This document shows positions 3,021 through 40,693 of a stretch of DNA of 42,895 nt, in pieces. The stretch is from positions 1-42,895 of the IMG/VR virus record IMGVR_UViG_3300025154_000187. One strand, 5' to 3'. The position numbers were made by a program, and so were the translations under genes. The notes beneath the pieces were generated by a model, which was not told the DNA's origin, did no database searches, and saw nothing but the letters and a program-made list of their open reading frames with translations. Origin of the DNA: a virus. The stretch's first letter is position 1; each line of letters starts with the position of its first letter.

Positions 3021-3064
3021 ATGATAAAAGTCATTGTTTTGCCTTTCTTTATGTAGTATTTTTG
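3021..3064 (+). promoter_or_regulatory. Operator-promoter module 1 (palindrome plus -7 box)
   Basis: ATGATAAAAGTCAT at 3021-3034 is followed after exactly 22 bp by the -7 box TATTTTTG at 3057-3064. The palindrome has 5-4-5 half-site geometry, like Crp/Fnr-family operators, and its centre falls near -41.5, the class II activation position. A TTG at 3034-3036 could act as the -33 element. It drives the gene at 3088. Four further copies with identical spacing occur at 31422, 32987, 34829 and 40650. Confidence 0.8.
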
Positions 3065-3087
3065 TTGCATAATTAAAATATAATAAG

Positions 3088-3381
3088 ATGAATATAGTAG
3101 AAATAGGGCAACAAGGAAAATTAGGAAAAGAAATACTAACTGTGGTTTCTTTTAATGAAAAAACATTTACGTGCGAAGGTGGAAGAACTTTTTTATTAAA
3201 TAATGCAAAGTGGATGACTGAAGGCAAAGATGTAAAAGTAAAAGCACCTAAAAAAAATAAATCTTACTTTTTTAATAATGAAAAATGTGAAAAAGATTTA
3301 AATGAAAAATTAAATGTAAATGAATTTGATGTATTTTTGCAAAATTCAGTTAAAAAACAATTACCAAGTTCATTAAGATAA
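3088..3381 (+). CDS. Hypothetical 97-aa protein under operator module 1
   Basis: The protein starts MNIVEIGQQGKLGKEILTVV and is predicted to be mostly beta in its first half (TFTCEGGRTFLLNNAKWM), then Lys- and Asn-rich (VKAPKKNKSYFF). It has no membrane segment or recognised motif. The 5' leader from the promoter at 3057-3064 is about 20 bases and A+T-rich. Being the first gene behind one of five shared operators, it is probably co-regulated with the DNA-metabolism genes of the right arm. Confidence 0.6.
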   Translation: MNIVEIGQQGKLGKEILTVVSFNEKTFTCEGGRTFLLNNAKWMTEGKDVKVKAPKKNKSYFFNNEKCEKDLNEKLNVNEFDVFLQNSVKKQLPSSLR

Positions 3382-3388
3382 AATTATT

Positions 3389-3565
3389 ATGAAGATTATA
3401 ACTAAAAAAGAAGCTGAAGAATTAGGTTGGTTGTTTTTAACTACAGGTAATACAATGACTGCCTCGAAAAAAGGAGAAACGATTCAACCTGTTAAAACAT
3501 TTATAGGATGTTTATTAACTTTAAGAAAAAAAATAACAAAATTTGAAACGCAGATTAGTTGCTAA
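3389..3565 (+). CDS. Hypothetical 58-aa protein
   Basis: ATG 3389 starts MKIITKKEAEELGWLFLTTG and the frame ends with TAA at 3563-3565, 7 bases after the preceding gene. The N-terminus suggests a short helix followed by a strand (amphipathic KEAEELGW). No family recognised. Spacing and orientation suggest it shares the transcript from operator module 1. The 3' end overlaps the possible -33 element of the next promoter. Confidence 0.5.
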   Translation: MKIITKKEAEELGWLFLTTGNTMTASKKGETIQPVKTFIGCLLTLRKKITKFETQISC

Positions 3566-3589
3566 ATTGTATTAATTAATATATCTTTG
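3559..3589 (+). promoter_or_regulatory. Bacteroidetes-type promoter before the terminase region
   Basis: TTG at 3559-3561, 20 bases of spacer, then a perfect -7 box TATCTTTG at 3582-3589, followed by CAAA and the ATG at 3594. The start codon lies 4 bases past the box, so the mRNA is probably leaderless. This is the last clear promoter before the terminase and tail genes and may feed the long virion operon. Confidence 0.65.
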
Positions 3590-3593
3590 CAAA

Positions 3594-3821
3594 ATGAATT
3601 ATATAAAATTTCAATATAAGTATAATTTAAAAATTAGACAAAAAATATTAAATTTAAGACCTGTATTTTATGTTATAATAAGAGGTAATGGATTTACTAT
3701 TCCTGATTTTATGATTGAACTATTTAATACAATTAAATTTACTCACATGTCTGCACATCATGGATTTATGTTGATTTTTGAAATATTTAATAAACAGAAA
3801 ATAGTTGAAATAGGAAACTAA
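3594..3821 (+). CDS. Hypothetical 75-aa protein behind a leaderless promoter
   Basis: Begins MNYIKFQYKYNLKIRQKI and is rich in aromatic and basic residues, with a hydrophobic C-terminal third (FMLIFEIFNKQKIVEI). No domain recognised. Its ATG is 4 bases after a perfect TATCTTTG box, so it is probably translated from a leaderless message. It precedes a short remnant and the terminase small subunit, which may share this transcript. Confidence 0.5.
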   Translation: MNYIKFQYKYNLKIRQKILNLRPVFYVIIRGNGFTIPDFMIELFNTIKFTHMSAHHGFMLIFEIFNKQKIVEIGN

Positions 3822-3828
3822 AATAATC

Positions 3829-4426: not shown

Positions 4427-4459
4427 CTATTTGAAGGACATCCGCAGGTATAATTTTAA

Positions 4460-6139: not shown

Positions 6140-6142
6140 ATA

Positions 6143-6367
6143 ATGAATGTTAATAAGACAGTAACAGATTGTTTAAAAGATGCTATAAAAAGAGCAGAGC
6201 GTAAGATGAACGACAATAAAGGCTTTTATATGTCTATAAATGACATTAGTCGTTTTCTTATGGTAGGTAAAAAGAAAATAAGATCTATAATAAAAGACAA
6301 TAAGATTAAGCCAGTTGATGATTACGGTTGGTATTATTATTTAGATGAAATTCAAAAATATTTATGA
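6143..6367 (+). CDS. Small HTH (excisionase/MerR-like) protein, 74 aa
   Basis: Residues 30-74 (MSINDISRFLMVGKKKIRSI then IKDNKIKPVDDYGWYYYLDE) fit the pattern of a winged HTH_17/excisionase-type domain: a helix, a turn, a recognition helix rich in Lys and Arg, then a Tyr-rich wing. A basic N-terminal helix precedes it. It overlaps the next gene by 4 bases (ATGA). It may bind phage DNA as a local regulator. No integrase is visible here, so a true excisionase role is unlikely. Confidence 0.5.
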   Translation: MNVNKTVTDCLKDAIKRAERKMNDNKGFYMSINDISRFLMVGKKKIRSIIKDNKIKPVDDYGWYYYLDEIQKYL

Positions 6368-7199: not shown

Positions 7200-7218
7200 T
7201 ATTGCAAAAAATATAAAT

Positions 7219-7455
7219 ATGACTAAAATCATAAAATCAAATGCTTTAAAACATGTTAAATATAAGTATGAGAGGTCTTTTAAACTCACTACGTCAGACC
7301 CAATAAAAATATGTGAATCAATTAACAAAAACGAAATGTTTAAAGATTTATGTTATTTGGGAGATGGAGAATTAAAGTCAAAAAACGAAAACAAAGCATA
7401 TTTTTATTTTGACCCTTTAAGTTGGGTTTTAGTAATTAAATATAATTTATCATGA
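7219..7455 (+). CDS. Hypothetical 78-aa protein
   Basis: Begins MTKIIKSNALKHVKYKYERS and ends SWVLVIKYNLS; probably a small alpha/beta protein with no visible motif. A TAATATTG at 7197-7204, one base off the -7 consensus, lies 15 bases upstream but is not a convincing promoter. It overlaps the next gene by 4 bases, so it belongs to the same operon as the tail-completion-like proteins. Confidence 0.5.
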   Translation: MTKIIKSNALKHVKYKYERSFKLTTSDPIKICESINKNEMFKDLCYLGDGELKSKNENKAYFYFDPLSWVLVIKYNLS

Positions 7456-27487: not shown

Positions 27488-27488
27488 T

Positions 27489-27809
27489 ATGGATAATTCA
27501 GAATTAGCTTTAATAGTAGGGAAGATGCAGTCAGATGTTGCTGCAGTAAAAGAGATACTGAATAGGTGGATTGAAACCAATGAAAAAAAAATTTTATCTC
27601 ACGAAGAATTAATTAAAAAAGTTGATGCTAAATGCAAAGTATGTCCTGAAAATGAACCTGCAATTATGGTTATATCTCAAAAGACTTATGAGGCATTAAA
27701 TACATCATACAGGAATAGAATTAACTGGATAATAGGTATTTTTACATTTATATTTATAACAGTTGAATTTATGCAGAATTTTGATAAATTTATAAAATAT
27801 CTTTTATGA
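27489..27809 (+). CDS. XhlA-like membrane-associated lysis accessory protein, 106 aa
   Basis: Residues 1-45 are a helical, coiled-coil-like stretch (LALIVGKMQSDVAAVKEILN). A single transmembrane helix lies near the C-terminus, about 79-95 (WIIGIFTFIFITVEFM). A CKVCPENEP segment sits between. Coiled coil plus C-terminal TM is the layout of XhlA-type proteins that assist holins. The next two genes are a spanin and a holin, which supports a lysis role. Confidence 0.5.
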   Translation: MDNSELALIVGKMQSDVAAVKEILNRWIETNEKKILSHEELIKKVDAKCKVCPENEPAIMVISQKTYEALNTSYRNRINWIIGIFTFIFITVEFMQNFDKFIKYLL

Positions 27810-28273
27810 GATGGCTATATTTAATTATATTTATTCTTTTATTGCAATCGTGTTCTATTTCAAAGAAATTAGACAAATATTGTCCATTATGTCCAACCAA
27901 GACGATTATTAAAGACAGCATTTCGGTTGTTTATAAAGACAGTTTAGTTATATTTGATTTGCCTTCTGATACAGTATTTAACATTCAAAAAATACCATGT
28001 GAAAATATAAATATACCTTTAAAAAGAATAGTTAAAGGAATTATAACAGCAGAAAGCTATGTTATTAACTCTAATTTATATATCAATGCTTATCTTAATC
28101 AAAAAATTATCAAAGATTCAATTAAAATTAAATATGTTACTGAAACAAAAATTAAACAGATTGATAGAAATATTGAAGTCGTAAAATATAAAACTCCACT
28201 ATCTAATTATGCTATTTTTGGACTTTTAGGAATGCTTATTATTTTATTAATATATTTAGTATTTAAAAAATGA
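27806..28273 (+). CDS. Putative unimolecular spanin (u-spanin), 155 aa
   Basis: MRWLYLIIFILLLQSC is a lipoprotein signal with lipobox LLQSC (Cys16). The C-terminal 24 residues (LSNYAIFGLLGMLIILLIYL and VFKK) are a transmembrane helix, with a beta/coil periplasmic stretch between. A lipid anchor in the outer membrane joined to an inner-membrane helix in one chain is the definition of a u-spanin (as in T1 gp11), which fuses the two membranes at lysis. Overlaps its neighbours by 4 bases. Function inferred from topology. Confidence 0.65.
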   Translation: MRWLYLIIFILLLQSCSISKKLDKYCPLCPTKTIIKDSISVVYKDSLVIFDLPSDTVFNIQKIPCENINIPLKRIVKGIITAESYVINSNLYINAYLNQKIIKDSIKIKYVTETKIKQIDRNIEVVKYKTPLSNYAIFGLLGMLIILLIYLVFKK

Positions 28274-28440
28274 AATCTTATAAAACAACTATAATCGGCT
28301 TGCTTTTGGCTATTTGCATAGCATTACAGCCATATTTTGAAACAAATGAGATTAATTATAAGTCTTTAGTAATTGCCTTACTTGTGGCTATATTAAGCTA
28401 TTTTGCAAAAGACAAAGACGTAAGTGGGGAAAATAAATGA
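28270..28440 (+). CDS. Small holin-like protein with two TM helices, 56 aa
   Basis: MKSYKTTIIGLLLAICIALQ (first helix) and SLVIALLVAILSYFAKDKDV (second helix, ending in SYFAKDKDVSG) match the layout of phage holins with two transmembrane segments; the FFAKDxxVSG ending is a common form in small phage holins. Overlaps the u-spanin stop (ATGA at 28270) and the fibre gene start. The endolysin (32448) is encoded elsewhere. Confidence 0.65.
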   Translation: MKSYKTTIIGLLLAICIALQPYFETNEINYKSLVIALLVAILSYFAKDKDVSGENK

Positions 28441-30677: not shown

Positions 30678-30680
30678 ATA

Positions 30681-30998
30681 ATGGCACTAATAAACACAAA
30701 CGGACAGTATTTAAGAATTATTAACATTGATACTGATAATATTATTGATGTTGAGATTTTTGAAAACAAAGAACATAAAGATAATATTTCTGAATTTTAT
30801 AAACCTATTATAAAAAAATATTATGTTGCAAATTTGTCTAATATAATTAATCAATCAATACCAAGTGAACTAACGACCGTAGAAAATAATATAAAAACAG
30901 TTGCATATTTGGAGTTGTCAAATATTATAGATAATTTTGCAGCATGGTCTCCTGATATAACATTGGAGCAAATAGAAATTATAAATAAATTTATATGA
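30681..30998 (+). CDS. Hypothetical 105-aa protein after the tail fibre
   Basis: Begins MALINTNGQYLRIINIDTDN and is a small alpha/beta protein with a helical C-terminus (TLEQIEIINKFI). Placement directly after the fibre gene, 3 bases on, suggests a fibre-associated or assembly factor, but no family is recognised. It overlaps the following gene by 4 bases. Confidence 0.5.
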   Translation: MALINTNGQYLRIINIDTDNIIDVEIFENKEHKDNISEFYKPIIKKYYVANLSNIINQSIPSELTTVENNIKTVAYLELSNIIDNFAAWSPDITLEQIEIINKFI

Positions 30999-31342
30999 AG
31001 CTAAAAATTAAAGATTGCATTAAGATAGTAGATAATATTGATGTATTTGCTAAATTTGAATTAAGTAAATTCAAAGAAATATTTAAGAAAATTAAAGTGG
31101 TTAAAGATATTGCCGAGCCTTATATAATAAAAAGAAGCTCTATGCAAAATAATTTAAATATTGAATTTACAGAGGCACAAACTGACAATGATAAGGAACA
31201 AGTTAATCTAAAATATTATAAGGAAGTTGAAAGCTATAAAAAAGATATAGAAAAACTTACCGACATTGAATTTAAAATTAAAGAAAAAGATTTACCAGAT
31301 GTGAGTTCAAAAGATTACTTGTTTTTACAAGACTTTTTTTAA
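30995..31342 (+). CDS. Hypothetical 115-aa protein, last gene of the virion block
   Basis: A Lys/Asp/Glu-rich, predicted helical protein (KLKIKDCIKIVDNIDVFAKF; VESYKKDIEKLTDIEFKIKE) without recognised motif. It is followed by a strong terminator at 31366 and so is probably the last gene of the virion transcript. Might act with the tail fibre. Confidence 0.5.
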   Translation: MKLKIKDCIKIVDNIDVFAKFELSKFKEIFKKIKVVKDIAEPYIIKRSSMQNNLNIEFTEAQTDNDKEQVNLKYYKEVESYKKDIEKLTDIEFKIKEKDLPDVSSKDYLFLQDFF

Positions 31343-31365
31343 TTTTCTTCATATATTCTTTTTCT

Positions 31366-31399
31366 GAGAGGGTAGCTAAACGAGCTGCCCTCTTTTTTT
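31366..31399 (+). terminator. Strong intrinsic terminator at the end of the virion block
   Basis: GAGGGTAGCT (31368-31377) pairs with AGCTGCCCTC (31383-31392) through a 5-base loop, with one G-T wobble and a run of seven T. It ends the virion transcription unit 23 bases before operator module 2, insulating the two regulons. Confidence 0.88.
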
Positions 31400-31421
31400 A
31401 TGCTATCAAACATGTTTTTTT

Positions 31422-31465
31422 ATGATAAATGTCATAGATTTATTTAATTTCATACTGTATCTTTG
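31422..31465 (+). promoter_or_regulatory. Operator-promoter module 2
   Basis: ATGATAAATGTCAT at 31422-31435, 22 bp spacer, then the -7 box TATCTTTG at 31458-31465 and the initial sequence GCAGAGT. Same spacing as modules 1, 3, 4 and 5. Drives the gene at 31502 after a leader of about 35 bases. Confidence 0.82.
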
Positions 31466-31501
31466 CAGAGTTAATTTTTAATAGTAATAAATAATAATAA
31501 A

Positions 31502-31972
31502 ATGAAAGTAAGTAAACCAAATATGTCAGAAGAAAAAAAAAAGGCACTTTTAAAAGATGCTAAAACAGTAAAATTTAAAAATGTTACAGGAATTCGTTAT
31601 AGTCATATAATAGAAGTAACATCAGATAAATTAATATTAAATGAGGAATGGTATTATCTCAAAAACATTACCATTCTCGAAATAGACGGTAAGCCATTAA
31701 ATAATGAACTTGACGAGATTGCTTTAAAATATTTTAATAAAAAGTTTGATAACTTAAATAATGATATGAATGGAAAAGAAGGTATGATTTATCAAAAACA
31801 CTATTGCCTCAAACAACTTGAAAGCCGATTAAACGGTGGAAAGTTAACAGATACGCATTTAAAAGGTTTGTTTGATTTTAATTCTGCTGAATTAAAAGAA
31901 AAATTCATCTCAATCGTAGGAGAGGAAAGACTAATTAATTTTTTAAAAGAATATCAAAATATTGGATATTAA
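31502..31972 (+). CDS. Hypothetical 156-aa protein under operator module 2
   Basis: The N-terminal half has KFKNVTGIRYSHIIEVTSDK and WYYLKNITILEIDGKPL, suggesting a beta-rich domain. The C-terminal half is helical (EGMIYQKHYCLKQLESRLNG, KEKFISIVGEERLINFLKEY). No domain recognised. It is the first gene after the long virion operon and is controlled by the shared operator, suggesting an early function. Confidence 0.55.
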   Translation: MKVSKPNMSEEKKKALLKDAKTVKFKNVTGIRYSHIIEVTSDKLILNEEWYYLKNITILEIDGKPLNNELDEIALKYFNKKFDNLNNDMNGKEGMIYQKHYCLKQLESRLNGGKLTDTHLKGLFDFNSAELKEKFISIVGEERLINFLKEYQNIGY

Positions 31973-32004
31973 TTTGCACAATAAATAAATTATATATATT
32001 TTTG
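31973..32004 (+). promoter_or_regulatory. Bacteroidetes-type promoter upstream of a terminator
   Basis: TTTG at 31973-31976, 20-base spacer, then the -7 box TATTTTTG at 31997-32004, close to the full consensus. Transcription starts around 32010 and meets a terminator at 32037-32068 just before the RusA gene, giving a predicted transcript of about 60 nt unless termination is overcome. Confidence 0.65.
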
Positions 32005-32036
32005 CACACTCGATTAAAAATTTACTTATTATTATT

Positions 32037-32068
32037 AGAGGAGAGTTTCGGCTCTCCTCTTGTTTTTT
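32037..32068 (+). terminator. Intrinsic terminator between promoter and RusA gene
   Basis: AGAGGAGAG (32037-32045) and CTCTCCTCT (32052-32060) make a perfect 9-bp stem with a 6-base loop, followed by TGTTTTTT. It lies between a clear promoter (31997) and the RusA start codon (32071), so it works as a leader attenuator or as the end of a small RNA. It may also end the transcript from module 2. Confidence 0.88.
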
Positions 32069-32070
32069 AA

Positions 32071-32415
32071 ATGAATAGGATAGAATATAAGGCATTATCG
32101 GTAAATCAATGTTGGCAAGGTAAAAGGTTTAAAACACCTATATACAATCAATATGAAATAGATTTATTATCTATATTACCTAAAATCAAGCTACCACCTG
32201 AACCTTTAGAACTTCATTTATTAGTTGGATTTAGTTCCAGTTTAGCAGACTTGGATAATATATTAAAACCTCTTTTGGATATAATGCAAAAGAAATATAG
32301 TTTTAATGACAAAAATATTTATAAGATTATTGTTGAAAAGACAAAAGTAGAAAAAAGAAAAGAGTTTATAGAATTTGAATTTAAAAGTTACATATCAAAT
32401 TTAAACCCAAAATAA
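32071..32415 (+). CDS. rusA: Holliday junction resolvase (RusA family), 114 aa
   Basis: Residues 58-82 (SLADLDNILKPLLDIM ... FNDKNIYKI) hold the RusA active-site pattern DxDNxxKPxxDxxxxxx(N)D, with acidic residues at D60, D62, D70 and D80. Length is typical. It resolves branched DNA, trimming replication/recombination intermediates before packaging. The start codon is only 2 bases past the U-tract of the terminator at 32037-32068, so expression depends on read-through. Confidence 0.82.
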   Translation: MNRIEYKALSVNQCWQGKRFKTPIYNQYEIDLLSILPKIKLPPEPLELHLLVGFSSSLADLDNILKPLLDIMQKKYSFNDKNIYKIIVEKTKVEKRKEFIEFEFKSYISNLNPK

Positions 32416-32447
32416 AGGCAATAGAAGTATTAAAATAAAAAGTAATA

Positions 32448-32903
32448 CTAATTATTAACTGGGAAGTGAATAAACATGTGTACGCTGCTTGTATGTCTAT
32501 GTCTAAGCATTACTTCGCCGCCGTTAGAATCATTGCCTAACGATGTGTTTCCTTCAATTGTATTGAAGTAATTATCTACATTGAAATATTTAAAAATACC
32601 TACATGGTCATAATGTCCGTCTTTATTCCAGTCAAACACTACAATATCACCTTCTTTTGGCTCACTAACTATTAGGTTATGTTTTTTTGCATAATCAATT
32701 AAAGTTTGCACACCTGCGAAACCATTAGTAAAACCAATTGGAGGGAGTTGTTTCCCAGCAAAGGCATAACACCAACTAACAAATATACCACACCATGCAA
32801 CGCCATCCCACCCGAACCACTCGCCATATTTAGTTTTATTACTATTTTTAGGACATTCTTTAGTTCCTATCTCTTTTTCTGCTACTTCAATTATTTTATT
32901 CAT
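32448..32903 (-). CDS. Endolysin with CHAP domain, 151 aa (only reverse-strand gene)
   Basis: DGVAWCGIFVSWCYAF carries the nucleophile Cys38, YDHVGIFKYF the His at 100, and TIEGNTSLGND the acidic/Asn residue about 117-119, the catalytic triad order of CHAP amidase/endopeptidases. PKEGDIVVFDWNKDG is the usual G-D-ixxF strand before it. At 151 aa it is a compact single-domain lysin, with no signal peptide, so the holin at 28270 would release it. It is transcribed against all other genes, behind its own promoter at 32917-32924. Confidence 0.82.
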   Translation of the reverse strand: MNKIIEVAEKEIGTKECPKNSNKTKYGEWFGWDGVAWCGIFVSWCYAFAGKQLPPIGFTNGFAGVQTLIDYAKKHNLIVSEPKEGDIVVFDWNKDGHYDHVGIFKYFNVDNYFNTIEGNTSLGNDSNGGEVMLRHRHTSSVHMFIHFPVNN

Positions 32904-32916
32904 ATTGTTTTTTCGG

Positions 32917-32924
32917 CAAAATTA
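32917..32924 (-). promoter_or_regulatory. Endolysin promoter, reverse strand
   Basis: Reading on the minus strand, TAATTTTG (complement of CAAAATTA at 32917-32924) is a full match to the -7 consensus, 13 bases before the endolysin ATG (32903). A run of T opposite 32945-32950 may act as the -33 element. It diverges from operator module 3, whose palindrome is 63 bases away. Confidence 0.6.
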
Positions 32925-32986
32925 ATAATAATTTTTTAAATATGCTAAAAAACATAATTATCTAACATATAAAAAATATCAAATAC

Positions 32987-33030
32987 ATGACAAATATCAT
33001 AGATTAAAATAGAATCATGTATTACTTTTG
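32987..33030 (+). promoter_or_regulatory. Operator-promoter module 3
   Basis: ATGACAAATATCAT at 32987-33000, 22 bp, then the -7 box TACTTTTG at 33023-33030, followed by TAGCATA (similar to module 1's TTGCATA). Drives the run of small genes starting at 33075. Located in the divergent interval between these genes and the reverse-strand endolysin. Confidence 0.82.
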
Positions 33031-33074
33031 TAGCATATTTTTTTTAACAATTTAATAATTTAATAAGTAGTAAA

Positions 33075-33413
33075 ATGAATACAATTAATACAATAAAAGA
33101 AAATATAATTGATTATTTAAATAATGAATTAATTAATTATAATGAAAAAGATATTGATAAATTAATCAATAATATTAAATTAAGTATTAGAAAGGATTTT
33201 TTTAAAAATATTCATACTTTGAAAATAAAAAGTATTAATATTAATAAGTTTAAAATTTATAATAATATTAAATTAAAAGACGATGTTCTTGTCTATACTA
33301 ATGATGAGGGTATTAAATCATATATATTTATATATGAGCTAAGATTATCTGATATAATAGAGATAAATAATAAACCATTTATTTATAATAAAGATATAAG
33401 TTTAATTCAATAA
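33075..33413 (+). CDS. Hypothetical 112-aa protein under operator module 3
   Basis: An Ile/Asn/Lys-rich protein, predicted helical at the start (TIKENIIDYLNNELINYNEK) and beta at the end (LKDDVLVYTNDEGIKSYIFI). No family recognised. Extreme A+T codon use. It is the first gene of a series of short overlapping genes up to 34816. Confidence 0.5.
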   Translation: MNTINTIKENIIDYLNNELINYNEKDIDKLINNIKLSIRKDFFKNIHTLKIKSININKFKIYNNIKLKDDVLVYTNDEGIKSYIFIYELRLSDIIEINNKPFIYNKDISLIQ

Positions 33414-33422
33414 GTAAAAAAT

Positions 33423-33602
33423 ATGTATAAGTATTTAGAAATCGTAAAAGATGATACAAACGAAGTAGTATCAAGAATGGACGTTACGGACAAATCGGAA
33501 CGTCAAATAGACAAAATATGGGACGGTGCGAGTATCAATCTTAACCATGATGATTATTCATTGCAATTAAATGAATGTGAAACAAAATTTGATAAAATTT
33601 AA
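33423..33602 (+). CDS. Small hypothetical protein, 59 aa
   Basis: MYKYLEIVKDDTNEVVSRMD followed by VTDKSERQIDKIWDGASINL is a small acidic alpha/beta protein; the strand-helix layout and the WDGASINLN segment are seen in short phage proteins of Bacteroidetes, without function. It follows the preceding gene after 9 bases and a clean A-rich leader (AAGTAAAAAAT). Confidence 0.55.
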   Translation: MYKYLEIVKDDTNEVVSRMDVTDKSERQIDKIWDGASINLNHDDYSLQLNECETKFDKI

Positions 33603-33613
33603 TAAGGAAAAAG

Positions 33614-33811
33614 ATGAAAGAACAATTAAAAGAAATAATAGGATTATTTTATGATTTACAACAAACCAAAAATATAGGATTTCAAATATTAGACGAAAAG
33701 ACATTTGATATTGCGTATTTTAGCGGAAACAAATGTACGGAAGTAATCACATTTGATATTAACGAAAAGGGATTAAACGATTGTATATTATATTTAAAAA
33801 GCCAACTATGA
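33614..33811 (+). CDS. Small hypothetical protein, 65 aa
   Basis: MKEQLKEIIGLFYDLQQTKN then IGFQILDEKTFDIAYFSG suggests one helix and a few strands. No motif or membrane segment. AAGGAAAAAG just upstream of the ATG is a possible weak ribosome site. It overlaps the next gene by an ATGA. Confidence 0.5.
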   Translation: MKEQLKEIIGLFYDLQQTKNIGFQILDEKTFDIAYFSGNKCTEVITFDINEKGLNDCILYLKSQL

Positions 33812-34089
33812 TAGATATTACCGATAAGTTAATTGAAGCTCTAAAAAAGAGCAAAGAAATACACGACTTTATCAAAGGAATTATGTATGATAAAACATAT
33901 AAAGCCGTAGAAATATGCGAATATAATCTAACTATTGTATTCACAATTGAATACCATTTAACAGTTAATAAAGATGACAATTTAGAAGTTGATTACTGCG
34001 AAAATCACAAATTAGACGTGTGGAACGAAAGTTCAGATTTGACAAATAATTATATATATAACATTAACAAAATAATAGAATCATTATGA
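33808..34089 (+). CDS. Hypothetical 93-aa protein
   Basis: The start is ATG 33808 (MIDITDKLIEALKKSKEIHD), sharing ATGA with the stop of the preceding gene; an in-frame ATA/TTG-initiated extension to 33781 overlaps it and is unlikely. The middle (KAVEICEYNLTIVFTIEYHL) is beta-rich and the end acidic. No family recognised. It is coupled to a Cys-rich mini-protein downstream. Confidence 0.5.
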   Translation: MIDITDKLIEALKKSKEIHDFIKGIMYDKTYKAVEICEYNLTIVFTIEYHLTVNKDDNLEVDYCENHKLDVWNESSDLTNNYIYNINKIIESL

Positions 34090-34223
34090 AAGAATTAAAA
34101 AATTGTAAACACCCAGAAAACACAATCTGCACATGTTGTAATGATTGTTTAAAAGAAAACATTAAAAAGGCAAAGTTCAGAGTTACTTTGCAAAGTAATA
34201 TTAATAAATTTTTAAATAAATAG
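34086..34223 (+). CDS. Cys-rich mini-protein, 45 aa (probable zinc knuckle)
   Basis: MKELKNCKHPENTICTCCND then CLKENIKKAKFRV contains five Cys residues and a His (CKH...CTCC..C) in the first 21 residues, a likely zinc knuckle with a basic tail. ATGA overlap with the upstream stop. Small Cys-rich phage proteins may bind host RNA polymerase or nucleases; no evidence decides this. Confidence 0.55.
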   Translation: MKELKNCKHPENTICTCCNDCLKENIKKAKFRVTLQSNINKFLNK

Positions 34224-34226
34224 TAT

Positions 34227-34667
34227 ATGATAGAAGTAAAATTTAGAGGAAAAATAAAATATAACGGCAATTATTTGTTTTCTGGCGATTGGGCTTTCGG
34301 TAGTTTGATTTTGAAATCAAAAGGAGCATTTATATATGTCATAGAAAAAGATAATTTTGATAATATTATAAGAGAATATGAGGTTGAAGTTATCCCTGAA
34401 TCAGTCGAACAGTTTACAGGTTTGAAAGATAAAAATGAAGTTGAAATATTTGAAAAGCAAATATTTAAATTTAAGTTTTTAAAAGAACTTCATAATCCAA
34501 TTGAATTAACAGGATATTTTACATTTGGAGAAGATTTATCATTTGAAATTGATGTATTGAAAAATAAAGAGTATATATGTTTGAAATATATTAGTAATGG
34601 TGTATTTTATGATTTTGAATTAACTGGAGAAAATGCTTTTGACAACCCTGAATTACTTAATAAATGA
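34227..34667 (+). CDS. YopX-family phage protein, 146 aa
   Basis: MIEVKFRGKIKYNGNYLFSG, then WAFGSLILKSKGAFIYVIEK and VIPESVEQFTGLKDKNEVEI with FEKQIF, matches the YopX pattern (FRGK, WxxGsL, PeSVxQFTGLkDKnxxeIFexDI). YopX proteins are widespread in Firmicutes and Bacteroidetes phages and prophages, function unknown. It is between two Cys-containing mini-genes and overlaps the second by an ATGA. Confidence 0.75.
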   Translation: MIEVKFRGKIKYNGNYLFSGDWAFGSLILKSKGAFIYVIEKDNFDNIIREYEVEVIPESVEQFTGLKDKNEVEIFEKQIFKFKFLKELHNPIELTGYFTFGEDLSFEIDVLKNKEYICLKYISNGVFYDFELTGENAFDNPELLNK

Positions 34668-34816
34668 AAACACATTTAATAAAAAATAAAAGAATATTAG
34701 ATATGGATGTAACGAAAACCAAATGTGGTTTGCGTGGTGGTGATTTATTAAGAACTGAAAATATTAAAAAAGTAACATGTAAAAATTGTCTAAGGAAAAA
34801 GAATAGGTGTTTTTAA
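34664..34816 (+). CDS. Small protein with TCxxCL knuckle, 50 aa
   Basis: The protein includes KTKCGLRGGDLL and VTCKNCLRKKNRC, so Cys at three regions may bind zinc, and the C-terminus is strongly basic. Short TCxxCL proteins recur in phages. ATGA coupling to YopX-like gene. The last gene before operator module 4. Confidence 0.5.
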   Translation: MKTHLIKNKRILDMDVTKTKCGLRGGDLLRTENIKKVTCKNCLRKKNRCF

Positions 34817-34828
34817 ACATATTTCTAT

Positions 34829-34872
34829 ATGATAAAAATCATGTTTAAATCAAATTTAAAGTAGTTACTTCG
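34829..34872 (+). promoter_or_regulatory. Operator-promoter module 4
   Basis: ATGATAAAAATCAT at 34829-34842, 22 bp, then TTACTTCG at 34865-34872 in the -7 position, a poorer match to TAnnTTTG than the other modules, consistent with dependence on an activator. The initial transcribed region GCAGAGTAAAATTGAGTAA is close to that of module 5. Drives the recombination genes. Confidence 0.8.
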
Positions 34873-34934
34873 CAGAGTAAAATTGAGTAAGCCTAATCTC
34901 ATTAAAATTAGGCGAAATTTAAATATAAGTAAAA

Positions 34935-35072
34935 ATGAAAAAAATTACAGAATTAACAGAGTTAGAAATATTGAATCTAACAGAAGAAGAAATCGCATTA
35001 AATTTCTTAAATAAAGCATACGGGTTAACCGAAGAAGAAAAAACTTTTGTTTTAGAAAATTACAATAAATGA
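34935..35072 (+). CDS. Small acidic hypothetical protein, 45 aa
   Basis: MKKITELTELEILNLTEEEI then ALNFLNKAYGLTEEEKTF is a predicted helical protein without Cys. First gene of the operator 4 transcript, ahead of the annealing protein gene. ATG overlaps a second mini-frame at 35069. Function unknown. Confidence 0.5.
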   Translation: MKKITELTELEILNLTEEEIALNFLNKAYGLTEEEKTFVLENYNK

Positions 35073-35134
35073 TTATCAACAAATTTCAAGAAACCAAAGC
35101 AACAGAGGAAGTAAAACGCCTCTTTGCTTTATAA
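35069..35134 (+). CDS. Possible 21-aa peptide overlapping a hairpin
   Basis: ATG 35069 overlaps the preceding TGA and encodes MIINKFQETKATEEVKRLFAL, ending at 35134. Its codons lie on a strong hairpin (35096-35130), so translation could control the structure, or the frame may be incidental. Confidence 0.3.
   Translation: MIINKFQETKATEEVKRLFAL
35096..35130 (+). repeat. Strong hairpin upstream of the annealing protein gene
   Basis: AAAGCAA-c-AGAGG (35096-35108) pairs with CCTCT-TTGCTTT (35119-35130), 12 base pairs with one bulge and a 10-base loop. No U-tract follows, so it is not a classical terminator. It lies 28 bases before the SSAP start codon and overlaps a mini-ORF, and could be an attenuator, RNA-stability element or RNase site. 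Confidence 0.6.
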
Positions 35135-35158
35135 ATAGTAACAATTAATATTAAATAA

Positions 35159-35836
35159 ATGGAAAATAAAACTTTACTACCAAAATTAGCAAATTTATAT
35201 GAAGACAATATTGAACTTGCGTATAAAAATGATCAGTTCAATGTTTTGATGAATCAAAACCCAAAGCCTGAATGGGTAAAAATAAATGAATATGCAAATA
35301 ATTCAAAGTATATTCCAATAGGAATTATCGAAACATTATTGAGCAAAGTATTTAAATCATGGTATCCTGAAATAATAAGGGAAGGGGTGGCTTTTAATGG
35401 TGTGTATGTTGTAATAAGATTGCATTGTTTAGACTTAATGACAAATGAATGGAAACAATATGATGGGATAGGAGCAGTGGAATTACAGGTTAAAAAAGGC
35501 TCAAGTCCTGCCGAACTTCAGAACTTAAATAAAGGTGCTATTATGATGGCTTTCCCTATGGCAAAAAGCTATGCAATTAAGGATGCAGCTGAACATATCG
35601 GAAAATTATTTGGACGTGATTTAAATAGAAAGGATACTATGTTGTTTGAAGCAGATAAATCAATTATCAATTCAATTGATGGTATAAATGATGCAAAAGA
35701 AAAAAATAGAATTATTGATTTTATAAACAAAGCTACTTCACCTGAGCAGTTACAGCAAATTTCAGAAGATATACTTTTGAAATATAATTTAGTAGATTTA
35801 AAATGTGATAAATTAAGTGAATTAATAACAGAATAA
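35159..35836 (+). CDS. Putative single-strand annealing protein (Rad52/Erf-like), 225 aa
   Basis: The sequence EIIREGVAFNGVYVVIRLHC, KQYDGIGAVELQVKKGSSPA and MAKSYAIKDAAEHIGKLFGR resembles the strand-helix core of phage annealing proteins of the Rad52/Sak and Erf/Red-beta superfamily; the AxxDAxxxxGxxFGxxL helix is the common signature. It anneals complementary ssDNA in recombination-dependent replication. The next gene is an exonuclease of the lambda/YqaJ kind, the partner usually found with such proteins. Family assignment by pattern, not by search. Confidence 0.65.
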   Translation: MENKTLLPKLANLYEDNIELAYKNDQFNVLMNQNPKPEWVKINEYANNSKYIPIGIIETLLSKVFKSWYPEIIREGVAFNGVYVVIRLHCLDLMTNEWKQYDGIGAVELQVKKGSSPAELQNLNKGAIMMAFPMAKSYAIKDAAEHIGKLFGRDLNRKDTMLFEADKSIINSIDGINDAKEKNRIIDFINKATSPEQLQQISEDILLKYNLVDLKCDKLSELITE

Positions 35837-35838
35837 AT

Positions 35839-36531
35839 ATGGATGAAATATTAATTAGAGCAAGTCAGGCTCATAAAATAATGACAGAACCAAAACTAAA
35901 ATCTGACAAAGAGGCGGGTTTGCTTGGTGAAACATCAAAAACTTATATAAAAGAATTATTTTTATATAATGAATTTGGATATAAAGAGCCTTTGTACACA
36001 CCTCAAATTATGAAAGGTCAGTTATGTGAGCAAGACAGCATGGCATTAGTTCAGGAGGTTTTAGGTGGCGAATTTCGTACTAAATGCAACGAAAAAAAGA
36101 GTAACGAATTTATTTGCGGAACTCCCGATGTTGTTTTAAAAGAAAGTGATTACATTGAAGATATCAAAACAAGCTGGGATATTAAAACATTTTTTAATGC
36201 AGAGCTTGAAAAATCTTATTACTGGCAGGGACAATGTTATATGGCTTTATTTGGCAAAACAAAATATCGTTTAATTTATTGTTTGGTGCAAACACCTGAA
36301 GAGTTAGTTCGTGAAGAAATAAAGAAATACTTTTTTAAGTTTGGATGCGATGAAATGAATGAGGATTATATTACTGTTGAAAATCAAATCACTCAAAATT
36401 TTGACATTTCAAAAATAGAACCTAAAAAACGTTTAAGGATATTTGAATTTGATTACAACCAGTCAGATATTGATAAACTTTATTTGCAGGTTAAAAAAGC
36501 ACGTGAGTATTATAAAACTCTTAAACTTTAA
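35839..36531 (+). CDS. YqaJ/lambda-type exonuclease, 230 aa
   Basis: FICGTPDVVL (D97 in the GTPD motif), IEDIKTSWD (D108, K110) and YYWQGQCYMALFG (127-139) form the G-T-P-D, (D/E)-x-K and Q-x-x-x-Y motifs of the YqaJ/lambda Exo nuclease fold. The N-terminal RASQAHKIM and LLGETSKTYIKEL fit the family's start. It resects DNA ends for the annealing protein encoded 2 bases upstream. Confidence 0.82.
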   Translation: MDEILIRASQAHKIMTEPKLKSDKEAGLLGETSKTYIKELFLYNEFGYKEPLYTPQIMKGQLCEQDSMALVQEVLGGEFRTKCNEKKSNEFICGTPDVVLKESDYIEDIKTSWDIKTFFNAELEKSYYWQGQCYMALFGKTKYRLIYCLVQTPEELVREEIKKYFFKFGCDEMNEDYITVENQITQNFDISKIEPKKRLRIFEFDYNQSDIDKLYLQVKKAREYYKTLKL

Positions 36532-36534
36532 TTT

Positions 36535-36690
36535 ATGTTAGAGCTAATAAAACTAAAATATGATATTAATGAGCTTTTGGAATCATTAAAACTCAGAAAT
36601 ACATTTTTAAAATTAAATAATGTTTCAAAGGAGGAAATTGAAGCAAACGAAAAGGTGATAGATAAATTAGAATTAATAATAAAATTTTAA
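36535..36690 (+). CDS. Small coiled-coil protein, 51 aa
   Basis: MLELIKLKYDINELLESLKL ... SKEEIEANEKVIDKLEL is a long amphipathic helix or coiled coil. No motif. It follows the exonuclease by 3 bases and precedes a zinc-finger gene. Function unknown; may be a regulator of its neighbours. Confidence 0.5.
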   Translation: MLELIKLKYDINELLESLKLRNTFLKLNNVSKEEIEANEKVIDKLELIIKF

Positions 36691-36694
36691 TATT

Positions 36695-37240
36695 ATGGAA
36701 ATAAAAATATGCAAGTGCTGTAAAAAAGAGTTACAGGCAACTAAAGATAATTTTTATGTTCAGAAAAGAGGTAAATATGGAGTAAAGGCAATTTGTAAAA
36801 TATGCGAAAATATAAGACAAAAACAATATAGATTAAAACCAGAATACAGAGAAAAGCATAGAATTCAAGCTAAAAATTGGAGGAAAAATAATCCAGAAAA
36901 GGCATTAGAAATAAACAGAAAATCATTTAATAAAAGAAGACATATATATAATGAAAAAAGAAAACATAGATACCATAATGATATGGAATACAAGTTAAAT
37001 AAAGATATTAAAAATAAAATTTATAGACAATCAGAGAAAGGTCAATTAATGCTACATAAAGATAAAAATATTACAAATTCAATAGAAAGGAGCAAAAACA
37101 ATAGGGCAAATTTATCAAAATGTTATATAGCTCAATTGAATAAAATTAGAGTAAAAGACATGAATAATGATGAATATGAAATAAAAAAAACAATCATAGA
37201 ATTAAAAAGAGAATTAAATATTAAAAATAATAAATTTTAA
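36695..37240 (+). CDS. Zinc-finger protein of HNH-like family, 181 aa
   Basis: CKCCKKELQATKDNFYVQKR and AICKICENIRQKQYR make a zinc-ribbon (CxCC...CxxC) followed by a Lys/Arg/Asn-rich helical repeat (NNPEKALEINRKSFNKRR). This layout is frequent in phage HNH-type or zinc-ribbon proteins of the KxCxxCxxxLP...FY...Y...CKxC kind, but no HNH catalytic residues are visible. Nucleic-acid binding is likely. Confidence 0.6.
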   Translation: MEIKICKCCKKELQATKDNFYVQKRGKYGVKAICKICENIRQKQYRLKPEYREKHRIQAKNWRKNNPEKALEINRKSFNKRRHIYNEKRKHRYHNDMEYKLNKDIKNKIYRQSEKGQLMLHKDKNITNSIERSKNNRANLSKCYIAQLNKIRVKDMNNDEYEIKKTIIELKRELNIKNNKF

Positions 37241-37243
37241 AAG

Positions 37244-37459
37244 ATGGAAAGAGATTTAAATTTTGAAGTAAAAACCAGCATCGATTTAAATAAAATGCTT
37301 ACAGGTTTATTAATGGACGTAAGAAGAGGCGAAGTAGATTACGAAAAAGCAAAGGCAATAACTTTAGTTGCAGATAAAATAAATAAAAATAATGTTAATG
37401 CTTTAGAATATAAAAGAATAACTAAGCATAATAATAATTTATCATTTTTTGAAGAATAA
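37244..37459 (+). CDS. Small conserved phage protein, 71 aa
   Basis: MERDLNFEVKTSIDLNKMLT followed by LMDVRRGEVDYEKAKAITLV and ADKINK is a helical protein. I recall a short helical protein of this pattern (LLxxMxdvrxGxidxxxAkxivxladkI) in many phage replication regions, with no known role. It follows the zinc-finger gene by 3 bases. Confidence 0.55.
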   Translation: MERDLNFEVKTSIDLNKMLTGLLMDVRRGEVDYEKAKAITLVADKINKNNVNALEYKRITKHNNNLSFFEE

Positions 37460-37483
37460 AATTTTAAAATAAACCTCAAAATA

Positions 37484-37515
37484 TTTTTTTAATTAAAAAA
37501 TAGATATTATCTTTG
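37484..37515 (+). promoter_or_regulatory. Bacteroidetes-type promoter upstream of a leader terminator
   Basis: A perfect -7 box TATCTTTG at 37508-37515, with a T-rich -33 region (TTTT at 37485-37488) 19-20 bases upstream. Transcription begins about 37521 and meets a terminator at 37588-37637 ahead of the replication genes, giving a transcript of about 110-120 nt if terminated. Confidence 0.6.
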
Positions 37516-37538
37516 TGCCGAAATAAAAAATATATTGT

Positions 37539-37664
37539 ATGCAAACAATCTTAGATTTCACTTTATTAAAATATACCAATATTAATTGGGGAGTTTTTGG
37601 CAGCCTGCATACCTGCATATTTCACTCCCCTTTTTTTATTGGATTTTTATTATATTATGAATAA
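37539..37664 (+). CDS. Possible leader ORF, 41 aa, spanning the terminator
   Basis: ATG 37539 opens MQTILDFTLLKYTNINWGVF and the frame crosses the whole terminator stem-loop, ending at 37664 just inside the next gene's start (37657). A ribosome translating it would block the stem. This is the geometry of a leader-peptide attenuator, but the peptide has no run of any one amino acid that would give a sensing role, so it may be fortuitous. Confidence 0.3.
   Translation: MQTILDFTLLKYTNINWGVFGSLHTCIFHSPFFIGFLLYYE
37588..37637 (+). terminator. Intrinsic terminator / attenuator before the replication genes
   Basis: GGGGAGT (37588-37594) pairs with ACTCCCC (37624-37630), followed by seven T. The 29-base loop contains a smaller nested hairpin (TGCA-TACC-TGCA). 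It lies between the promoter at 37508 and the genes at 37657-40055, so read-through must be possible for them to be expressed from here. Confidence 0.78.
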
Positions 37665-37821
37665 AAACAAAGAAATTAAACACAAATTTTGCGACTTTTT
37701 CACAAGTAAAATAATCAGAAAAATAGATAAGCAAAACAATACTGATGTTATTAATATGCCACTTCCACAGATAAAAGGGTACTTAAAGTGTGCTAAAGTT
37801 TCACAATATAAAGATAAATAA
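37657..37821 (+). CDS. Small hypothetical protein, 54 aa
   Basis: The start is ATG 37657 (MNKNKEIKHKFCDFFTSKII). A longer in-frame version to 37597 would begin inside the terminator and is unlikely. The rest reads DVINMPLPQIKGYLKCAKVS. It resembles short HTH-like or replication-associated helical peptides, but no family is assigned. It abuts the next gene. Confidence 0.5.
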   Translation: MNKNKEIKHKFCDFFTSKIIRKIDKQNNTDVINMPLPQIKGYLKCAKVSQYKDK

Positions 37822-38370
37822 ATGAGAGATTCAACAATTATTTATCGTAGTTTTTATGAAGCAATAAAAGAATTGCCTAAAAAAAATCAAGCTGACCTAT
37901 GGGAAGCTATATTTGAATACTCATTAAATTTTAATGAAATTAAATTAATTGGTATTTCTGAAACAGTTTTTAAATTAATAAAACCGCAACTTGATTCTAA
38001 CATAAAAAAATATAAAGATGGTTGCAAAGGCAAAGAGTATGGTATTCAGGGAGGTAGACCAAAAAAAAATAACCCCACAAGAACCCCACAGAAACCCCAC
38101 AAGAACCCCACAGAAACCCCTAATGATAATGATAATGATAATGTAAATTATAATGTAAATGAAAATGTAAATGTAAATATTAATGACGTTATAAAATATT
38201 TTTCTTTAAAAGGATATACAAAAGAATCTGCAATAAAATTTTATAATTATTATGAAGCTGCAAACTGGATTAATAAAGATGGCAAAGAAGTTAAAAACTG
38301 GAAATTAACAGCAGTTCAAGTTTGGTTTAAGCCAGAAAATGAAAAACCTAAAAGTAAATTTCAACCATAA
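37822..38370 (+). CDS. Replication-initiator-like protein (DUF6291-type), 182 aa
   Basis: The N-terminal MRDSTIIYRSFYEAIKELPK then NQADLWEAIFEYSLNF is the DUF6291-like domain of Bacteroidetes phages. A Gly/Lys/Pro/Asn-rich linker (GGRPKKNNPTRTP, NPTETPNDNDND) follows, then a C-terminal helix-rich domain (IKYFSLKGYTKESAIKFYNY) as in DnaD-like or helicase-loading proteins. It lies directly before the primase-helicase. The linker DNA holds iteron-like repeats (38071-38120). The replication role is inferred. Confidence 0.6.
   Translation: MRDSTIIYRSFYEAIKELPKKNQADLWEAIFEYSLNFNEIKLIGISETVFKLIKPQLDSNIKKYKDGCKGKEYGIQGGRPKKNNPTRTPQKPHKNPTETPNDNDNDNVNYNVNENVNVNINDVIKYFSLKGYTKESAIKFYNYYEAANWINKDGKEVKNWKLTAVQVWFKPENEKPKSKFQP
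38071..38185 (+). other. Candidate replication origin: tandem 11-bp iterons and A+T-rich tract
   Basis: Four and a half tandem copies of an 11-bp unit AACCCCACARR run from 38071 to 38120 (units at 38071, 38082, 38093, 38104 and a partial at 38115), roughly one helical turn apart. They are immediately followed by an A+T-rich repeat tract (TAATGATAATGATAATG... to about 38185). Iterons plus an unwinding element inside an initiator-like gene is the layout of the lambda O/ori region. Because 11 is not a multiple of 3, protein selection does not explain the DNA periodicity. Confidence 0.6.
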
Positions 38371-40055
38371 TGGAAAATATCACAGATTATAATTATTTAG
38401 GATTTAATCTTAAAGGCAAAACATCTGGGCAAATAAGAACTACTTGCATACATTGTTCACATTTAAGGAAAAAGAAAACAGACCCTTGTTGTAGTGTTAA
38501 TTTAGACGATGGGACTTATTATTGTCATAACTGCGAAAAGTCAGGAAGTTTACATAAATTTAAAAGGAATAAAGTTGAGGCAATAAAGTATATTATTCCG
38601 TTATGGAAAAATAAAACTGAAATACCTGATAAAGTTGTTAAATGGTTTGAAACTCGCAAAATAAGTCAAAAAACATTGATGGAAATGAAAATAACATACG
38701 GCAATGATTATTTTCCTCAAATAGAAAAAGAACAAAGTTGTATTGAATTTAATTATTTCAAAGACAATGAACTTATAAATGTAAAGTATAGAACTGGAGA
38801 TAAATTATTCAAACTTCATAAAGGTAGTGAATTAATATTTTATAATTATGATTCTATTTTAAAAAATAAAGAAATAGTAATCGTAGAAGGCGAAATTGAT
38901 TGTTTGAGTTATATTGAAGCTGGCATTAGAAATGTAATTTCAGTTCCTAATGGTGCTAATTTGAATAAAAACAACCTTCAATACTTAGATAGTTGTATTG
39001 ATATATTTGATAATATAGATAAGGTCTATTTAGCTACTGACAATGATATTGCAGGTATTAATTTAAGGAATGAATTAATAAGAAGGTTGGGAAGTGATAA
39101 ATGCTTTATTGTTGATTTTAATGATTGCAAAGATGCTAATGAATATTTAATTAAATATGGATTATTTGAACTTAAAAAAACTATTGAATTAGCCACAGAA
39201 ATTCAAATTGAAGGTATTTTTAAAGTAGAAAATTTTGAGGAAGAGTTAGATGTGCTTTATTCAAAAGGATTGCAACCTGGACTAAAGATAGGATTTAATA
39301 AGTTAGATAATTTAATTACTTGGGAAAAATCAAAGCTTGCAATAGTAACGGGCATACCTTCACATGGTAAATCTGAGTTTATAGACCAGATAATTGAAAG
39401 ATTAAATGCATTACATAAATGGAAATTTGGTATATTTTCGCCAGAATGTTTTCCTATTCAAATTCATGCTGCAAATTTAATAAGTAAAATAACAGGAAAA
39501 GTGTTTAATGAAAATAGGTTAAGCATAGATGAATATTTTGAAGCAAAAAAATATTTAAATGATAATTTTTATTTTATAAAGCCAGAAGACAGCGGGTATT
39601 ATTTAGATAATATCTTAACAAAAGCTAAGGTTCTAATTAAAAAGTATGGTATTGATGGATTAATTATAGACCCGTATAATAGACTTGAACATGCCTTACC
39701 TTCTGGCATGCCTGAAACTAATTATATTAGTCAATTACTTGATAAATTAACTAATTTTTCACAGGCTAATAACATATTAATATTTTTAGTTGCACACCCT
39801 CGCAAGATGTTAAAACAAAAGGGTAATAATTATTATGAAGTTCCAAACTTATATGATATAAATGGTAGTGCTAATTTTTACAATAAAGCAGACTATGGAT
39901 TAACTGTTTATAGAAATTATAATTTAGGTGGTATATGCGAGGTACATGTGCAAAAAGTAAAAAGAAAAAATTTAGGAACTACTGGACTTGTAACATTTAA
40001 TTATGATATGGATTCAGGAAGGTTTATTGAGCAAGAATTAAATAATGTTTTTTAA
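38370..40055 (+). CDS. Bifunctional primase-helicase (T7 gp4-like), 561 aa
   Basis: Zinc finger: Cys26, Cys29, Cys52 and Cys55 (CIHC...YCHNC). Toprim primase: IVEGEIDCLS (E173) and YLATDNDIAG (D224, D226). Helicase: Walker A GIPSHGKSE at 328-336, Walker B LIIDP at 431-435 and FLVAHPRKM at 472-480. This is the domain order of T7 gp4-type enzymes: template-dependent primer synthesis coupled to DnaB-like strand unwinding. It overlaps the initiator-like gene by one base. The phage lacks its own polymerase in this window, so it would use the host's. Confidence 0.9.
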   Translation: MENITDYNYLGFNLKGKTSGQIRTTCIHCSHLRKKKTDPCCSVNLDDGTYYCHNCEKSGSLHKFKRNKVEAIKYIIPLWKNKTEIPDKVVKWFETRKISQKTLMEMKITYGNDYFPQIEKEQSCIEFNYFKDNELINVKYRTGDKLFKLHKGSELIFYNYDSILKNKEIVIVEGEIDCLSYIEAGIRNVISVPNGANLNKNNLQYLDSCIDIFDNIDKVYLATDNDIAGINLRNELIRRLGSDKCFIVDFNDCKDANEYLIKYGLFELKKTIELATEIQIEGIFKVENFEEELDVLYSKGLQPGLKIGFNKLDNLITWEKSKLAIVTGIPSHGKSEFIDQIIERLNALHKWKFGIFSPECFPIQIHAANLISKITGKVFNENRLSIDEYFEAKKYLNDNFYFIKPEDSGYYLDNILTKAKVLIKKYGIDGLIIDPYNRLEHALPSGMPETNYISQLLDKLTNFSQANNILIFLVAHPRKMLKQKGNNYYEVPNLYDINGSANFYNKADYGLTVYRNYNLGGICEVHVQKVKRKNLGTTGLVTFNYDMDSGRFIEQELNNVF

Positions 40056-40062
40056 AAATAAA

Positions 40063-40329
40063 ATGATAAAATCAAAACTTTTTACTCAAGAGCAAAAGGA
40101 AATGATTTATCCTTGCTATTTGCAACATATAAGTTATAACATGCAAGTAAAATTAATAGACCAGCAACGTAGTATTGCAGTAAGGCAAACTCCTTCAGGA
40201 GCAGGGTTTAATATAAATTATGAATATTATGGTGGAGGTAATTTATATTTGTATGATAGTAATTATAAGCCAAGTAATGCAGTTAATTTTAAAGAGTTGT
40301 TAAAAATAGGAAATGAGTTTTATAAATAA
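40063..40329 (+). CDS. Hypothetical 88-aa protein
   Basis: ATG 40063 (MIKSKLFTQEQKEMIYPCYL) is chosen because it follows an A-rich leader; ATG 40045 (MFFKNKM...) overlaps the primase end and is an alternative. The rest contains GAGFNINYEYYGGGNLYLYD, a Gly/Tyr-rich beta stretch. Probably co-transcribed with the primase. No family recognised. Confidence 0.5.
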   Translation: MIKSKLFTQEQKEMIYPCYLQHISYNMQVKLIDQQRSIAVRQTPSGAGFNINYEYYGGGNLYLYDSNYKPSNAVNFKELLKIGNEFYK

Positions 40330-40627
40330 TTATAAATGTTAGCAAATGAAAAATAAAGAATTTAGGTTAGCTGCAAAACTTTTAGAAATGGCAGATGAGG
40401 AATTCGGAAATCACGTATGCAATGATGTCTATGAATCATTTTGGGATGGATGGGAAAAAGAAGAAAGACAAGAATTTGTAAAACAATATCACGAATGGAA
40501 CGGCGACCCAGAAGAATTTGACCCAAACTTTTTACTATTGCCAGACTATGCAATAATGGGCTTTTTGGCTCACAAACTGCGTGTGTTGGCGGATTAAAAA
40601 TTTGCGTATAGCAACTGTTATAAATAA
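40320..40627 (+). other. Moron cassette C (G+C-richer gene between TTATAAATAA repeats)
   Basis: The gene at 40346-40597 is clearly richer in G+C than its neighbours. TTATAAATAA occurs directly at 40320-40329 and 40618-40627, flanking it. This parallels cassettes A and B, but the repeat is A+T-rich and could be coincidental. The end of the segment has the GCGTATAGCAACTGTTAT type of non-coding DNA also seen by cassette B's right side. Confidence 0.3.
40346..40597 (+). CDS. Conserved phage hypothetical protein, 83 aa (moron)
   Basis: AAKLLEMADEEFGNHVCNDV, DGWEKEERQEFVKQYHEWNG and DPNFLLLPDYAIMGFLAHKL give an acidic helical protein that I recognise as a widely shared hypothetical phage protein. 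No catalytic motif. Base composition contrasts with the A+T-rich flanks, so horizontal origin is likely. Operator module 5 lies 52 bases past its stop. Confidence 0.7.
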   Translation: MKNKEFRLAAKLLEMADEEFGNHVCNDVYESFWDGWEKEERQEFVKQYHEWNGDPEEFDPNFLLLPDYAIMGFLAHKLRVLAD

Positions 40628-40649
40628 GTGTTAAACAACATATTTTATT

Positions 40650-40693
40650 ATGACAAAAATCATTTTATGTTAAAATAACAATTTGTAATTTCG
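40650..40693 (+). promoter_or_regulatory. Operator-promoter module 5
   Basis: ATGACAAAAATCAT at 40650-40663, 22 bp, then TAATTTCG at 40686-40693 (one base off the -7 consensus), followed by GCAGAGTAAAAATAAGTAA, like module 4. The transcript has a leader of about 70 bases before the ATG at 40768. Confidence 0.82.

Follow-up and report, generated by a model that had tools for sequence, protein, structure and literature searches.

Five palindrome–promoter modules of fixed spacing in a viral genome record and their counterparts in Bacteroidota chromosomes

Operators of the Crp/Fnr family consist of two five-base half-sites separated by four bases (5-4-5), and class II activators of the family bind near -41.5, as at the class II site of E. 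coli FNR, TTGAT-N4-ATCAA at -41.5. Repeated activator boxes in a phage genome are familiar from the middle promoters of T4, where the MotA box is centred near -30 and MotA itself is encoded by the phage. Control of a phage by a host protein of the Crp/Fnr family is already known as well: a study of the T1 prophage (PMC6737242) describes host cAMP-CRP as a repressor that responds to sugar state, the phage regulator Pir acting as an intermediate. Here we describe five copies of a 14-base-pair (bp) near-palindrome, each exactly 22 nucleotides (nt) upstream of a -7-like promoter box, in the virus record IMGVR_UViG_3300025154_000187 (positions 1 to 42,895, the whole 42,895-nt stretch being hereafter called the window).

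These modules resemble FNR- and Anr-type class II promoters in their 5-4-5 palindrome, in a centre at -41.5 and, in host genomes, in their respiration and heme targets; they differ in a half-site that starts with A rather than T, in a Bacteroidota -7 box, and in being present in five copies in a phage genome. As with T1 and CRP, several phage promoters would be governed by a host regulator of the Crp/Fnr family, whereas here the position of the sites at -41.5 suggests activation, by a regulator of the FNR type. With T4 they share a repeated upstream box beside a -10 or -7 element, and part from it in the position of that box and the predicted source of the activator. We think it likely, from the sequence comparisons below, that a host FNR-like regulator activates the five phage units through class II sigmaA promoters, with low oxygen as the signal. 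The literature searched, subscription papers being outside its coverage, contained no account of phage promoters activated by FNR and none of this flavobacterial motif.

Sequence and geometry of the five modules

An earlier note on this DNA, made by a model from the sequence alone, had proposed five operator-promoter modules of identical geometry. Exact 14-mers matching ATGAYAAAWRTCAT do occur five times, all on the plus strand, at 3021, 31422, 32987, 34829 and 40650, and in every case the gap to the box (at 3057, 31458, 33023, 34865 and 40686) is exactly 22 nt. None of the five 44-nt modules shares a base with any listed gene, and non-genic DNA makes up 9.8% of the window. The proposal needs correcting only in the box, which the note had given as TAnnTTTG throughout: three of the five fit (TATTTTTG, TATCTTTG and TACTTTTG), while the box at 40686 (TAATTTCG) has one mismatch and that at 34865 (TTACTTCG) has two. 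The modules, with the open reading frames (ORFs) that follow them and protein lengths in amino acids (aa), are these:

3021..3064, plus strand: module 1, operator ATGATAAAAGTCAT, 22 nt, -7 box TATTTTTG; 5' of the ORF at 3088-3381 (97 aa, no assigned function)
31422..31465, plus strand: module 2, operator ATGATAAATGTCAT, 22 nt, -7 box TATCTTTG; 5' of the ORF at 31502-31972 (no assigned function)
32987..33030, plus strand: module 3, operator ATGACAAATATCAT, 22 nt, -7 box TACTTTTG; 5' of the ORF at 33075-33413 (no assigned function)
34829..34872, plus strand: module 4, operator ATGATAAAAATCAT, 22 nt, variant box TTACTTCG; the next ORF is 35159-35836
40650..40693, plus strand: module 5, operator ATGACAAAAATCAT, 22 nt, variant box TAATTTCG; 5' of the ORFs at 40768-41202 and 41214-41924

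Recurrence in shuffled sequence, which the note had named as grounds for rejecting its proposal, is not seen. In 300 dinucleotide shuffles of the window the exact 14-mer averages 0.027 copies against five observed, and the complete arrangement of 14-mer, N22 and box never appears, again against five; the box pattern in this comparison, T[AT]nnTT[CT]G, was widened to fit after the five sites had been viewed. Enrichment of the 14-mer in the window is absent once up to two mismatches are allowed (15 found, 12.3 expected), so that the signal resides in a few strong exact sites. A sixth, relaxed palindrome at 7219-7232 lies in coding sequence, overlaps an ORF start codon, has no box 22 nt downstream, and is probably due to chance.

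A study of Flavobacterium psychrophilum (PMC9723704) places the sigmaA box TAnnTTTG at -12 to -5. With the 14 bases of the operator and the 22-nt gap, the midpoint of the palindrome then falls at the class II position of -41.5 (between -42 and -41) in all five modules, relative to a predicted transcription start. The class II geometry suggested in the earlier note thus agrees with the published box position. A TTG 18-22 nt 5' of the box, corresponding to a -33 element, is missing in four of the five modules, and seven of the ten intergenic boxes outside them lack it too; in module 1 a canonical TTG precedes the box by 20 nt, and modules 2 and 3 have none at 18-22 nt. The intergenic boxes at 225, 3582 and 31997, which lack a palindrome, each have the canonical TTG 20 nt upstream and represent a second, probably constitutive promoter class in the same phage. 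Directly 3' of the -7 box, modules 2, 4 and 5 have CAGAGTWAA in common (31466-31474, 34873-34881 and 40694-40702), and T[TA]GCATA follows the box in both module 1 and module 3; promoter duplication or a conserved initial transcribed sequence is possible in these cases.

Bacteroidota chromosomes and a candidate regulator

The same module is found in bacterial chromosomes. In a scan of 84,980 species, with one genome each, 78 of the 80 loci listed are Bacteroidota by record title, the others being one Ignavibacteriae and one Chlorobiota. When the spacer was left free between 8 and 36 in 61 Flavobacterium-group genomes, it was 22 in 58 of 80 matches, 21 or 23 in ten and some other length in the remaining 12 (relatedness uncorrected), and the reversed control for this search gave three matches. 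A relaxed pattern gave 234 matches in 41 genomes, against nine for its reversed control. By the pattern used for the genomes, the window holds four modules (the box of module 4 falls outside that pattern), or 93 per megabase (Mb); the density in the Flavobacterium group, 0.27 per Mb, is lower by a factor of about 350. The preferred palindrome is ACATGAYAAAAGTCAT in phage modules and TATGATAAATATCATATTTT in host modules.

Genes of respiration and heme metabolism are among those that follow. For 83 sites in the 80 loci listed, we took the first downstream ORF of at least 60 aa within 400 nt and assigned its class by sequence motif, one example per class being named by NCBIfam or Pfam. They comprise CcoS (22), HemN (6), Usp (6), CcoN (4), thioredoxin-type proteins (4), Pta (3), 2-oxoacid oxidoreductase (2) and other proteins (34), with no such ORF at two sites. 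In F. psychrophilum under oxygen limitation, cbb3 oxidase is strongly up and heme enzymes are up too (PMC9723704). There thus appears to be a flavobacterial regulon, as judged by sequence, with the same palindrome and the same spacer 5' of cbb3 and heme genes. The comparison with a host regulon that the earlier note had recommended therefore comes out in its favor.

No Crp-type helix-turn-helix (HTH) above cut-off is found among the window proteins, as the note had claimed, and its suggestion of a host-encoded activator gains support from the host sites of the same sequence and spacing; it can be narrowed to an FNR-like protein. Of 61 Flavobacterium-group genomes, 55 encode an orthologue of this protein (L277, 226 aa) with at least 54% identity. 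The gene for the FNR-like protein and a spacer-22 module are no more than 6 kilobases apart in 25 of 41 genomes bearing such a module; in the one genome where both were read (G001), the nearby module precedes ccoS. A palindrome of the form ATGAYN4RTCAT stands 49-59 nt 5' of the gene's own start in 26 of 27 loci, which probably reflects autoregulation. The 27 loci are those yielding an ORF by motif among the 30 best-scoring orthologues (L308-L337), L309, L323 and L331 having given none. The density of relaxed sites is 1.80 per Mb in the 35 genomes with the orthologue and 0.75 per Mb in the six without (p = 0.002, phylogeny uncontrolled).

The protein aligns with an FNR type regulator in the Protein Data Bank (PDB) over residues 3-224 (E=3e-19), the closest PDB chain being another Crp/Fnr protein, 2gau (E=3.7e-31). 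NCBIfam Fnr is its best NCBIfam match, at 86 bits against a cut-off of 228, and for this reason we call the protein FNR-like rather than Fnr. The Fe-S ligands of E. coli FNR are C20, C23, C29 and C122. Residues C4, C7 and C106 of the FNR-like protein align with three of these cysteines and Ser13 with the fourth. Every one of the 27 ORFs has C4, C7, C29 and C106, C4 and C7 having belonged to the motif by which the ORFs were selected. The recognition helix GTATESCIRL, likewise found in 27 of 27, aligns with that of FNR and keeps its Glu and Arg; the GTA-E part of the helix was used in ORF selection and the Arg was not. The Ile of this helix stands at the position of FNR Ser212, and may accompany the change from T to A at the first base of the half-site.

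If this protein is the regulator, the modules would be sigmaA promoters that depend on a class II activator. An FNR-type Crp/Fnr dimer encoded by the host would bind the 5-4-5 palindrome centred at -41.5 and contact RNA polymerase, turning on five phage transcription units, and the timing of their expression would follow the oxygen supply of the cell, rising when the host runs short. The rise at low oxygen is predicted because the same type of promoter precedes host cbb3 oxidase, heme and fermentation genes, the first two of which are known to increase under oxygen limitation. Phage gene expression would then depend, by way of a host protein, on how much oxygen the cell has. Steep oxygen gradients mark the sediments, biofilms and waters in which Bacteroidota are common, and the control of infection by environmental oxygen becomes directly testable. 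For the oxygen response of Flavobacteriaceae, the analysis further supplies a candidate regulator together with a binding motif that can be computed.

Other viruses, relatives and rival explanations

The exact module is present in 39 stretches of viral contigs. We dropped four in which similar sequences lie antisense to a long ORF (L022, L026, L030 and L044) and, where a contig had two loci, the second one (five contigs: L023, L039, L040, L042 and L047), leaving 30 records; L021, L032, L036, L041, L045 and one site of L017/L038 were kept despite overlap with an open frame of more than 120 codons. Each of these records was chosen because it has one or more exact modules; together they contain 52 relaxed modules, against none in the reversed control, and 14 of the 30 have two to four. 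DNA comparison of the loci sorts them into 26 groups, or about 24 once the same-site pairs G076/G078 and G079/G091 are joined. Judged by eye, the proteins 3' of the modules resemble small phage genes and not respiration genes. No Crp-type HTH above cut-off was found in any of the 30 records, many of which are fragments; there is one weak match, at 14.9 bits. We put at about even the chance that diverse Bacteroidota phages, in the roughly 24 sequence groups, have independently placed units under host FNR and so gained low-oxygen gating with no sensor of their own.

The host of the window is probably a member of the Bacteroidota, and most likely of the Flavobacteriaceae, given the terminase and primase relatives in flavobacterial phages and the promoter type. 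By DNA, window positions 24000-42895 gave only short matches to 397 genomes of the family, so no close host was found in this way, and megablast with positions 1-25000 found no relatives among cultured phages. The protein encoded from 41214 retrieved no loci. Of 12 loci retrieved by the primase, one (L004, 48% identity) has a module. BLAST with three short module stretches gave partial matches only; the one that was read, in phage MaF61, falls inside an annotated gene.

Several observations weigh against control by a host FNR-like protein. The trait is patchy: among the relatives examined at the protein level, L004 alone has a module. There is no exact palindrome and no spacer-22 site in 84 relative loci totalling 1.0 Mb (four found by the exonuclease and the best 80 of at least 600 found by the terminase). 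Two of 22 further records (11 by primase, six by exonuclease or terminase and five cultured phages) fit the relaxed pattern, with TTCTTTTG as the box and a dissimilar palindrome, and the whole records of the cultured phages PJN03, JQ, P2559S, P2559Y and MaF61 contain no module. The conservation in related phages to which the earlier note had looked is thus not borne out. Since relatives mostly lack the module, conservation at orthologous positions is unusable as support, which leaves the host regulon and the recurrence in other phages to carry the argument. Among the 80 loci listed in the viral control of spacing, spacer 34 is found 16 times, spacer 22 nine times and spacer 25 eight times. By eye, the viral matches at spacers 34 and 25 are mostly homologous runs. 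Five of the six genomes without an FNR-like orthologue still carry one to five relaxed sites (G026 has five). The slight difference between phage and host consensus may stem from a different binder or from hosts elsewhere in the Bacteroidota. The lack of a -33 TTG is not peculiar to the modules, and module 1, with both palindrome and TTG, may be partly constitutive or need no activator. Many of the 30 other virus records being fragments, the missing HTH is weak evidence there.

Another Crp/Fnr paralogue of the host, for example a MalR-like or nitrogen-oxide regulator, might bind instead, and the phage would then read carbon or nitric oxide state rather than oxygen. Each of eight module-bearing host genomes has 3 to 10 HTH_Crp_2 matches, a Flavobacteriales Crp/Fnr homologue is placed near MalR in one study (PMC8510549), and relaxed sites in genomes lacking the FNR-like orthologue would fit such a protein. 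We nevertheless regard it as unlikely, as the cbb3 and heme target set points to the FNR-like protein, whose gene lies so often near a spacer-22 module and almost always has the palindrome before its own start.

Binding by a phage protein of unrecognised type, as a middle or late activator or a repressor, we consider very unlikely. Most proteins 3' of the modules have no assigned function, the completeness of the record is not stated, and the consensus difference would suit a separate binder, yet the same palindrome and spacer stand before respiration genes in bacterial chromosomes. Moreover, no Crp HTH exceeds the cut-off in 31 module-bearing virus records, and a Pfam scan of 20 window proteins shows a single HTH, in an HTH_17 protein (6143-6367) just 3' of the terminase gene. 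Least probable of all is that host FNR represses phage genes at these sites, or that the sites are decoys titrating host FNR. The palindrome before the FNR-like gene may indeed serve repression; against this stand the spacing fixed at 22, as in host respiration promoters, and the rise, not fall, of cbb3 and heme genes in low oxygen (PMC9723704).

Genes around the modules

The earlier note had described the five units as early or DNA-metabolism genes. Recognisable DNA-metabolism genes are present in the unit after 34829 only; the genes after 40650 have no assigned function, as is the case for most proteins 3' of the modules. From the box of module 4 to the next listed ORF there are 294 nt, and the extent of the transcript beyond is a prediction. 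Matches to PHROGs and Pfam give the following features:

35159..40055, plus strand: putative unit 3' of module 4
35159-35836, plus strand: protein without assigned function, first ORF of the module 4 unit
35839-36531, plus strand: exonuclease, module 4 unit
36695-37240, plus strand: endonuclease VII-like protein, module 4 unit
37822-38370, plus strand: DUF6291 protein, module 4 unit
38370-40055, plus strand: primase/helicase, module 4 unit
40768..41924, plus strand: two genes 3' of module 5, phrog_12688 and phrog_11501, function unassigned

A further box lies at 37508, within the putative module 4 unit. The sole minus-strand gene in the gene list, an endolysin-like gene at 32448-32903, sits between a RusA-like gene and module 3, and a YopX-family phage protein (Pfam PF09643) is encoded at 34227-34667.

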